A stretch of 51,169 bases of DNA. It comes from Boseongicola sp. GTDB lineage: Bacteria > Pseudomonadota > Alphaproteobacteria > Rhodobacterales > Rhodobacteraceae. Both the position numbers and the translations under genes were made by a program. Where the stretch lies: NCBI GenBank assembly GCA_028824715.1, contig JAPPCV010000146.1, positions 1-51,169 on the forward strand, in the 5' to 3' direction. Position 1 is the first letter of the stretch. The number at the start of each line of letters is the position of its first letter. Positions 1 to 35,073 of the stretch are shown piece by piece. The notes under the pieces were generated by a model. It was not told the origin of the DNA. It saw only the letters and a program-made list of their open reading frames with translations, and ran no database searches.

Positions 1-61
1 GACCTCATCGACCCGTGAAATCAGTGCGAGAGCGGCCTGATGGTCACTTACGTATTCCCAA

Positions 62-32396: not shown

Positions 32397-33048
32397 TCCG
32401 GATTCCGGCGACCGAATCGTCGAGATCGGTGCGGTGGAGCTGGTCGGGCACGTACCGACGGGAAAAACCTATCACCAGTACGTCAATCCGGAGCGCGAAG
32501 TGCCCAAGGAGGCAGTCGACGTGCACGGCCTCACCGACGACTTTCTGCGCGACAAGCCGGCATTTGCCGCAATTGCACAGGATTTCCTGACGTTCATCGG
32601 CGATGCGAAGCTGGTCATCCACAATGCGGCATTCGACCTGAAATTCCTGAATGCGGAACTCCGCTGGCTGGCACTTCCGCAAATTGACGAAGTACGAGCG
32701 GTGGACACCCTTGAAATCGCGCGCAGGAAATTCCCTGGCTCGCCCGCGTCACTTGATGCCCTGTGCCGGCGCTTTGGAATCGACAATTCGAACCGGGTCC
32801 TGCACGGGGCGTTGCTCGACAGCGAAATCCTGGCGGAACTCTATCTCGAACTGATGGGCGGCAGGCAACCGGACCTGCTGCTTGCGACCAGGGACGAAGC
32901 GACGGTTGCGACCGGGGCGGGCGAGCAATGGCGGCCGAGGCCGCGTCCCGTCCAGCTTGGGTCGCGCGTGACACCTGAAGAAGAGAGGGCCCACGCTGAG
33001 CTGGTGGCCAGGCTGGGCGAGGATTCGGTCTGGCAACGGCTCAGTTAG
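32356..33048 (+). CDS. dnaQ: DNA polymerase III epsilon subunit (proofreading exonuclease)
   Basis: This 230-residue DEDDh exonuclease is the proofreading subunit of the replicative polymerase. ExoI is [20 protein letters not shown], ExoII is [17 protein letters not shown], and ExoIII is [20 protein letters not shown] with the catalytic His. A C-terminal tail probably binds DnaE. The start ATG inside coaE has a GGGCGGG-type upstream purine tract and gives [12 protein letters not shown], the family start. The 3' end overlaps the convergent secB by 8 bp. An origin-proximal position suits a replication gene. Confidence 0.96.
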
Positions 33049-33541
33049 CCGGCGTTTCCGCGACCTTGGGTTCTTTGCGTTGCTGCTTGAGCCGTTCCCT
33101 GTAGAGCGTGACGAAGTCAATGACGTCCAGGTTCAGCGGCGGGAAGCCGCCGTCGCGGGTCATGTCGCTGACAATCCGGCGCACGAACGGGAACATCATC
33201 CGCGGGCACTCGATCATCAGGAACGGATGCAACTGTTCGCCGGTGATGTTCTTGATCTGGAACAGTCCCACGTACTCGAGTTCGAGAAGAAACAGCACAT
33301 CGTCGCTGTCCTTGTTCTTTGAAGTTATGCTGTACTTGGATACAACCTCGAACCGGTCGTCACCGCCAATCTTCCGGGAATCGATCGTCACTTGCGCCTG
33401 GAAGTCTGGCCGAACTTCCGCCTTGATAGGCTTTCGCGTGACGATGTTTTCAAATGACAGGTCACGAATGAACTGCCCGAGAACCTTCATTTGCGGAACC
33501 TGTGGCTCCTGTGGTGCCGAACCGTTCTCTTTCTTGGCCAT
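33041..33541 (-). CDS. secB: Protein-export chaperone SecB
   Basis: The 166-residue SecB tetramer keeps precursor proteins export-competent and hands them to SecA. Conserved blocks are [55 protein letters not shown] and [20 protein letters not shown] with [15 protein letters not shown]. The acidic/low-complexity N- and C-terminal tails are usual. A possible -10 TATAAT for this gene lies within the inverted repeat of the mobile-element-like insertion just upstream (33593-33598 on the minus strand). Confidence 0.97.
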
Positions 33542-33581
33542 TAGCGGACTCCGATGGCAGGCTTGAGACCTGCAGGGCTCA

Positions 33582-33851
33582 ATCAGAGGGGAATTATACC
33601 GTTGACTGAAACGTGTTCGTTCCAGCCCCGGCTGATTTCACGGGTCGATGAGGTGGGCAACCCCAACGCCTCTTGCCGTGCAGATGCGCCAATCCCGGAC
33701 GCCTCGTCATGTCATTCCGCCCACGCGGCGGTCTTTCACGGGGCCATTGGCCCAAATCCTGATGAAGATCGGCGGGAAACCCGCCCTTCCGGATGGCCCC
33801 GGACATGGCACGTTCCGCAGTTTCAGTCAACGATATAATCCCCTATCAGAG
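33582..33851. mobile_element. MITE-like non-autonomous element between secB and fxsA
   Basis: Terminal inverted repeats of 24 bp with 22 matches bound this element: 33589-33612 against the reverse complement of 33820-33843. Both share ATTATA, one variable base, then CGTTGACTGAAAC. Immediately outside them is a 7-bp direct repeat ATCAGAG (33582-33588 and 33845-33851), the expected target-site duplication. The interior of roughly 205 bp has no credible transposase; a GGCGG-GAAA-CCGCC hairpin lies at 33772-33785. The right direct repeat contains the fxsA stop codon, so insertion happened exactly at the fxsA 3' end. Each repeat carries an outward TATAAT. It is short and non-coding, as expected for a MITE mobilised in trans. 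Confidence 0.7.
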
Positions 33852-34316
33852 CGTCCGGCGACGCTCAATGCCGCGGTCATCCACGGGTTCGTCCGAGAGC
33901 TCCTCGAATTCCCCTTCAACGACATCCGTTTCCGGCGGCCGGGCAGTGGACCCATAGGCAAGTTCCTGCACGACCAGCCGATCTCTTGCGAAGCGAAAGA
34001 CGGCGCTGCGCACCGCCGGGACCATCATGGAGAGCCCGATCGTGTCAGTAAGGAACCCGGGTGTCAGCAGAAGCGCCCCAGAAAAGAGGATCATGGCTCC
34101 ATGGGCAAGAGGTTCGGTCGGATCCTTCAGATCGTGAAGGCTGTCACGCAGTTCGGACAGGACCAGAAGGCCCTGGCTGCGGACGAGAGCGGCCCCGAGC
34201 ACTGCGGTCAGGATCACGATGGCCAGCGTCAGGCCGAGGCCGATGGCCCCGCCTACCTGTATGAACAGGGCGATTTCGCAAAGCGGCACCAGCAGAAACA
34301 GCAAGAAAAGGCGCAT
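33846..34316 (-). CDS. fxsA: FxsA-family inner-membrane protein
   Basis: This 156-residue FxsA/UPF0716 protein has transmembrane segments at the N-terminus (RLFLLFLLVPLCEIALFIQV, then IGLGLTLAIVILTAVLGAAL) and around residues 75-100 (MILFSGALLLTPGFLTDTIG, a family signature). A charged cytoplasmic tail follows. In E. coli it influences F-plasmid exclusion of phage T7; its normal role is unclear. The start at 34316 was preferred over the ATG 6 nt upstream because the GGAGGA site is then 7 nt away. It is divergent from the Tim44-like gene. The stop codon lies inside the direct repeat of the MITE-like element. Confidence 0.9.
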   Translation of the reverse strand: MRLFLLFLLVPLCEIALFIQVGGAIGLGLTLAIVILTAVLGAALVRSQGLLVLSELRDSLHDLKDPTEPLAHGAMILFSGALLLTPGFLTDTIGLSMMVPAVRSAVFRFARDRLVVQELAYGSTARPPETDVVEGEFEELSDEPVDDRGIERRRTL

Positions 34317-34419
34317 GCGCATTTCCTCCATTGAAGGCATCAGGTGGACTCGGGCACCAACTCGCCCTACATATGTGTCCTGTCGACCGAAATCCAATTC
34401 CTTGTCGTTGAGAGGCCGA

Positions 34420-35073
34420 ATGAGTTCTTCAATATTCCAGCTTCTGGTCCTTGCTGGCGTAGCCCTGTTCCTGATCTTCAAGTTGCGAAGCGTCCTGGGG
34501 ACGAGAGGGGGGTTCGAAAAGCCTCCGATTGTCGGGGGCAGCGCCCGAACCCGGCCGGAGTTCGATGTCATCGAGGGCGGACCGGATCCTGACATTACCG
34601 ACTTTGTCGAGGATGGATCGGCCAGCGCCAAGGCGTTGGCGGCAATGAAGGAAGCCGAGCCCGGATTCATGGTCGCGACTTTCCTCGAAGGCGCGCGCGA
34701 GGCCTTCGAGATGATTCTCATGGCATTCGAAAACGGCGACCTTTCGGAAGTGGAAGGCCTGATTTCCGAAGACATCGAAAAGTCGTTCGCCCCCATCTTC
34801 ATTGCCCGCAGGGAGCGCAGGGTCACGGTTGAGGCGAGCCTTGTGGCAATTCGTGACGTCACGCTGAAGGAAGCCACTTTCGATGCGAATTCCGGCCTGG
34901 CTGAACTGACGGTTCGCTTTGTCTGTGAACTGACATCGGTTGTGAAGGACCACATGGGCAAGGTCGTTGAAGGCGATCCGAACGAGATAAAGCGCCAGAA
35001 GCACGCTTGGACCTTTGCCCGGACCATGGGTGCGAATGATCCGAACTGGCAGCTGGTCGCCACGATGGAATGA
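34420..35073 (+). CDS. Tim44/TimA domain protein
   Basis: This 217-residue protein has an N-terminal membrane anchor (FQLLVLAGVALFLIFKLRSV) followed by an acidic linker and a Tim44-like domain (about residues 75-217): FLEGAREAFEMILMAFENGD, LISEDIEKSF, then AELTVRFVCELTSVVKDH and HAWTFARTMGANDPNWQLVA. In Caulobacter TimA binds inner-membrane FtsH-related factors; the family resembles the mitochondrial import component. It sits in the conserved fxsA/Tim44/Smr neighbourhood. Its stop overlaps a tiny downstream ORF as ATGA. Confidence 0.88.
   Translation: MSSSIFQLLVLAGVALFLIFKLRSVLGTRGGFEKPPIVGGSARTRPEFDVIEGGPDPDITDFVEDGSASAKALAAMKEAEPGFMVATFLEGAREAFEMILMAFENGDLSEVEGLISEDIEKSFAPIFIARRERRVTVEASLVAIRDVTLKEATFDANSGLAELTVRFVCELTSVVKDHMGKVVEGDPNEIKRQKHAWTFARTMGANDPNWQLVATME

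Follow-up and report, generated by a model that had tools for sequence, protein, structure and literature searches.

A short IS1595-type mobile element between secB and fxsA of Boseongicola sp. with a putative TnpB guide-RNA scaffold

TnpB is the ancestor of Cas12. In bacteria, the nuclease is described together with the IS200/IS605 and IS607 elements (PMC8612924, PMC9956272). In ISDra2, the guide RNA (reRNA or omega RNA) comes from the 3' end of tnpB and the right end of the element plus about 16 nt of flank, cutting requires the motif TTGAT before the target, and the proposed target is the empty donor site (PMC8612924). The related eukaryotic Fanzors also occur in inverted-repeat DDE transposons, such as the ascovirus element. 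These include a nonautonomous element that codes only for Fanzor1, whose inverted repeat and duplication are predicted to be part of the RNA (PMC10711439). TnpB-derived repressors exist as well. IS1595-family insertion sequences encode an ISXO2-like DDE transposase, typically generate 8-bp target duplications, and give rise to MITEs. Literature searches for TnpB in combination with IS1595, MITEs, inverted repeats, or target duplications showed no title or abstract opening on TnpB in bacterial IS1595-type elements or on guide-only MITEs, although most subscription papers were outside their reach.

The window analyzed here is a 51,169-nt stretch of Boseongicola sp. (contig JAPPCV010000146.1 of GCA_028824715.1, positions 1 to 51,169). 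A sequence-only reading had described a MITE-like element at the fxsA stop codon upstream of secB, with inverted repeats, 7-bp direct repeats, no transposase, and a possible promoter for secB. The features relevant to this element are as follows (gene names as given by that reading).

33589 to 33843, minus strand: MITE of 255 bp with IS1595-type ends, oriented by its RNA core, with the left end at 33843 and the right end at 33589
33820 to 33843, minus strand: left-end terminal inverted repeat GGGGATTATATCGTTGACTGAAAC, similar to the ends of the IS1595 element at locus L215 (GGGAATTATATACTTGACTGAAAA and GGGGATTATATACCTGACTGAAAC)
33589 to 33612, plus strand: right-end terminal inverted repeat GGGAATTATACCGTTGACTGAAAC, on the guide side
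33844 to 33851: target-site duplication TATCAGAG on the fxsA side, holding the fxsA stop
33581 to 33588: target-site duplication on the secB side, AATCAGAG, one change from TATCAGAG
33635 to 33703, minus strand: omega-RNA-like core, a scaffold derived from the 3' end of tnpB, with four helices
33569 to 33588, minus strand: predicted guide segment, the first 20 nt of the flank after the right end (CTCTGATTGAGCCCTGCAGG), inferred by position from the ISDra2 reRNA (PMC8612924)
33852, minus strand: TAM-like G just outside the duplication on the left-end side
33041 to 33541, minus strand: secB (166 aa), the downstream gene, codirectional with the RNA core
33846 to 34322, minus strand: fxsA (158 aa), the upstream gene, codirectional with the core (open reading frame 33846 to 35063, with the start MRMRLF chosen by eye)
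1 to 59, plus strand: right end of a second core-bearing element, cut by the contig edge and followed by the flank AAACTCTC

The observation itself is confirmed. The 24-nt ends match at 22 places (92% complementary), and the open reading frames listed inside the element are of 94 aa or less or run into fxsA on the other strand, none resembling a transposase by eye. A search of the genome itself returned 36 matches, 13 of them spanning nearly the whole element. Of 41 genomes searched, 9 had a match: the 8 of the genus, with the source genome included, and 1 weak match in another genus (E 9e-4). This is far beyond chance. Several contigs of the genome end inside such repeats, and the loci L008 and L031 (contig C150 of genome G000 and contig C120 of genome G005) show the same MITE insertion with the same flank in two genomes of the genus, so some insertions are older than the split. 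The direct repeat, however, is 8 bp and not 7 bp. Other copies have perfect 8-bp duplications, and the secB-fxsA junction was found uninterrupted in 7 of 7 other genomes of the genus. In three of these (L365, L367, and L368) the site reads CTC-TATCAGAG-CGTCC with a single TATCAGAG, while in the other four the two flank matches overlap by a few bases, so no element lies between them. One base of the secB-side copy in the window has therefore changed. The fxsA stop (TGA on the minus strand, 33846 to 33848) is present in the uninterrupted site, so FxsA is not altered.

The interpretation given by the sequence-only reading is supported only in part. The MITE assignment holds on the basis of the copies, the duplications, the uninterrupted sites, and full-length IS1595-family elements with closely similar ends. 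The outcome named beforehand as refuting it, an absence of further copies together with conservation of the sequence between secB and fxsA, was not found. The promoter suggestion is not supported: sigma-70 and terminator scans of positions 33400 to 34000 found none, and the TATAAT at each end is part of the conserved end GGGAATTATATAC that related elements share, which is not evidence of a promoter. The reading also missed the main content of the element, a tnpB-derived RNA scaffold.

The source genome and its relatives contain elements with the outer end GGGAATTATATAC, or one close to it, and different inner end sequences. One group codes for an IS1595-family transposase. PF12762 occurs in 8 of 8 genomes of the genus and at 8 places in the source genome. 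Other IS families with 8-bp duplications were also considered. Complete copies with 8-bp duplications include the element at L215 (positions 310 to 2735, 2,426 bp), whose ends are among the closest to GGGAATTATACCGTTGACTGAAAC; the match of the MITE to the ends of L215 and of a second IS1595 element, L219, is close but not identical. The transposase of L215 matches PF12762 and PF12760, and the element also carries a DNA methylase-like gene. The IS1595 elements L215, L219, L220, L223, L224, L207, and L213, of 2.4 to 4.1 kb, hold further open frames besides the transposase.

The 69-nt core of the MITE occurs in other repeats directly at the 3' end of tnpB, with the reading frame of TnpB running into it. 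TnpB genes (PF07282, the Zn-ribbon family) occur in 8 of 8 genomes of the genus and at 13 places in the source genome. Several of them (L041, L046, L064, L066, L067, and others) lie in elements of about 1.1 to 1.5 kb with IS1595-type ends, 8-bp duplications, and, as far as seen, only tnpB. The TnpB of L066 matches PF07282 and PF01385. By profile, the TnpB matches ISDra2 TnpB structures over nearly its full length (E 6e-37), and the motifs GLDRN, VEGL, and ADLNAA, which have a catalytic role in ISDra2, are present. A scan of a collection of genome contigs with a TnpB alignment found 96 relatives, of which 80 loci were kept, in records titled Alphaproteobacteria, Gammaproteobacteria, Rhodothermaceae and other Bacteroidetes, Bryobacterales, Terriglobia, Dadabacteria, and a few others. 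Many of these come from marine sponges. Of 65 loci examined, 34 had inverted ends with a duplication, with up to 2 mismatches in the duplication allowed. IS1595 transposases were found in 18 of 19 genomes searched that hold TnpB relatives of this set. TnpB genes of another clade (L035, L036, and L279) lie in 1.2-kb elements with different inverted ends (GGTAGTGTATCAC...) and 8-bp duplications with 0 or 1 mismatch, perhaps a second capture of TnpB by an inverted-repeat transposon.

The core shows conserved RNA structure with strong compensatory change. RNAalifold on an uncurated alignment gave a poor structure. A four-helix structure was then written by eye and counted, so it leans to these sequences. 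Over the 42 of 90 distinct cores that are exactly 69 nt long, 96.0% of cells form standard pairs, 92 cells are changed on both sides compared with a mean of 24.8 in shuffles, and no slid version exceeds 45.2%. Over 25 rows taken as tnpB-less, not each of which was checked for this (L075 has a tnpB relic), the values are 96.7% and 25 cells compared with 8.9. Two measures do not stand out: further pair types (reached by 115 of 500 shuffles in the 42 and by 130 of 500 in the 25) and, in the 25, the number of pairs with change on both sides (211 of 500). Folding of the 87-nt core of the window alone gave no unusual energy (z −0.35), while the whole element does (z −5.1 and −5.8), as its inverted ends alone would lead one to expect. 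The case for an RNA rests on covariation and not on energy.

Within MITE subfamilies, the core is better kept than the left body, with 0.876 compared to 0.792 in subfamily A (14 copies) and 0.934 compared to 0.739 in the second (13 copies). In subfamily A, the right body (0.842) is close behind and the right end (0.898) ahead, and conservation of the core could partly be gene conversion between copies. One 194-bp copy (L183) has lost much of the body but kept the ends and the core. A covariance model built from the 42 cores finds the core in 17 of 17 chosen genomes and at 31 places in the source genome, with the window copy, itself one of the model's sequences, among the best scores (94.9 bits; E 8.7e-18). 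In 142 genomes drawn from the class, it was found, with stricter filters, in only 2, the source genome included. An Rfam scan of positions 33000 to 34500 gave no match up to E 1, which is not a defining requirement because Rfam holds only described families. By place and structure, the core is very probably the scaffold of the TnpB omega RNA.

If the MITE RNA works as in ISDra2, insertion sites should carry a fixed motif on the left-end side only, the mark that a TnpB recognition motif (TAM) would leave. They do: the base just outside the duplication on that side is G in 26 of 27 MITEs, 7 of 7 TnpB elements of the genus, 0 of 1 degenerate TnpB element of another genus of the family (L143), and 31 of 31 further TnpB elements of other genomes. 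Together this amounts to 64 of 66, compared to 12 of 66 at the mirror position. The two exceptions are L143 and the MITE L173. The controls, which were IS1595 transposase elements, show the G in 19 of 47 (Fisher p 7e-12), and in the outside genomes in 9 of 22, compared to 31 of 31 (p 6e-7). Ten MITEs whose two ends are nearly identical still show the G in 10 of 10 forward and 2 of 10 reverse, so the ends themselves hardly explain the direction. Within the genus, with L143 counted in, the contrast for G alone is modest (33 of 35 compared to 10 of 16, p 0.008) but stronger for G followed by A (28 of 35 compared to 3 of 16, p 9e-5). The window site has the G followed by C and not by the commoner A. 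The IS1595 transposase elements of the genus (L106 to L134 and L205 to L224) also often have C at the first duplication base (8 of 15), and both controls and core elements share A or T at positions 2 and 7 of the duplication, as expected if the same kind of transposase moves them.

These counts carry several restrictions. Only 6 of the 47 control ends were confirmed by a right end with duplication when the control list was compiled, 2 of them with G. Of 8 genus IS1595 elements with both ends in a separate comparison, 5 have G. A first control attempt gave 4 IS1595 elements with both ends, one of them (L306) doubtful. The copies are related and only identical 20-nt flanks were merged, so the counts are not fully independent. 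Of the 34 TnpB loci that passed the end thresholds, 31 enter the count: L226 and L230 are same-genus copies, and L279 (ends GGTAGTGTATAAC, base A at the place of the G) was dropped before the count, while the similar L035 and L036 were not counted. L179, a different 345-bp repeat with a false core hit, was also dropped.

Scaffold-carrying MITEs without tnpB are not a peculiarity of one genus. Two genomes titled Gammaproteobacteria hold 213-bp elements (L384 and L386) with the core, no tnpB, perfect duplications (ATATACTT and TATCCAAA), and the G. Among the 32 loci of this comparison, 17 had both ends and a duplication, all 17 with the G, although 12 of the 15 with tnpB repeat elements already counted. 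Three further tnpB-less loci showed no duplication. Promoter-like 9-of-12 pairs in the two gammaproteobacterial MITEs are matched in about 20% of shuffles (203 and 196 of 1,000), and in four MITEs of the genus a 9-of-12 pair uses the end's own TATAAT. No promoter was recognized in the window element.

The favored explanation, which is likely but unproven, is that of a nonautonomous IS1595-type transposon carrying a trans-acting guide RNA. The ends, the 8-bp duplications, the copies, the uninterrupted site in relatives, the identity of the core with the 3' end of tnpB in larger elements with the same kind of ends, and the conserved RNA structure rest on data, whereas movement by an IS1595 transposase in trans is inferred from shared ends and duplication length, the role of the G as a TAM is inferred from its one-sidedness, and transcription, binding by TnpB, use of the flank as guide, and cleavage are inferred without expression or cleavage data. 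In this view, the RNA would be made on the minus strand, perhaps by read-through from fxsA, run out of the right end, and take the duplication plus adjacent DNA as its guide. TnpB encoded elsewhere in the same genome would bind it and cut only DNA with a G just before the guide match, that is, the site without the element, since at the occupied site the element's own CCC stands there instead. Repair from a copy that holds the element would restore or install it. At this locus, the changed base in the secB-side duplication is position 8 of the guide, so this copy may already match the empty allele of relatives less well.

An unlikely but not negligible alternative is an ordinary IS1595 MITE that arose by internal deletion of a TnpB element, with the tnpB 3' end as a passive remnant and the G as the target preference of the transposase. 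The shared ends, the shared A/T preference within the duplication, the lean of the genus controls to G, and the lack of a recognized promoter fit this reading. In contrast, the core structure is kept by compensatory change in copies taken as tnpB-less and is better kept than the left body, and the G is one-sided relative to the core even with nearly identical ends and separates the outside TnpB elements from their controls. Less likely still, the MITE RNA may be a decoy or regulator that binds TnpB, active or not, and titrates it or represses transcription near the target. Retention of the scaffold while tnpB is lost would agree with this, but the TnpB motifs and the TAM-like G at insertion sites fit cutting of the empty allele. 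An internal guide, with the scaffold ending at GTGAAATCA, after which similarity between subfamilies stops, is improbable because the following subfamily-specific stretch forms, as judged by eye, hairpins that differ in sequence but keep their shape and include the end, and because the TAM-like G lies outside the element, where a flank guide needs it.

The broadest reading, held to be somewhat more probable than not, is that bacterial DDE transposons of the IS1595 type have taken up TnpB and its guide RNA across several phyla and have thrown off guide-RNA-only MITEs, which move with one borrowed enzyme and are kept or driven by a second, RNA-guided one. TnpB in bacterial inverted-repeat elements with target duplications would show that its benefit does not depend on the single-strand excision of IS605. 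A MITE carrying only the guide RNA would be a minimal selfish element, akin to a natural gene drive in two parts, and would show how guide RNAs become separate from their nuclease, a step needed for CRISPR-Cas12 to arise. The one-sided G gives a direct TAM prediction.

Compared with IS1595-family insertion sequences and their MITEs, the element shares the GGG ends with inverted repeats, the 8-bp duplication, and the presence of IS1595 transposases in the same genomes, but it carries a putative TnpB guide-RNA scaffold instead of a shortened transposase gene. The TnpB systems of IS200/IS605 and IS607, such as ISDra2, share the TnpB family, an RNA from the tnpB 3' end to the right end, and the flank as guide (PMC8612924), the last two being inferred for the MITE. 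Here, the ends are inverted repeats with target duplications, and the guide RNA also occurs without tnpB. The small IS200/IS605-derived elements known as PATEs are likewise short and moved in trans, the latter being inferred for the MITE, but they have subterminal palindromes, no inverted repeats, and no target duplication, which does not agree with the ends and duplications found here. Fanzor1 and Fanzor2* in eukaryotic inverted-repeat DNA transposons offer a parallel in the nonautonomous element with inverted repeats and duplications that codes only for the nuclease (PMC10711439), whereas here the host is bacterial, the nuclease is a TnpB, and the small forms lack the nuclease altogether.
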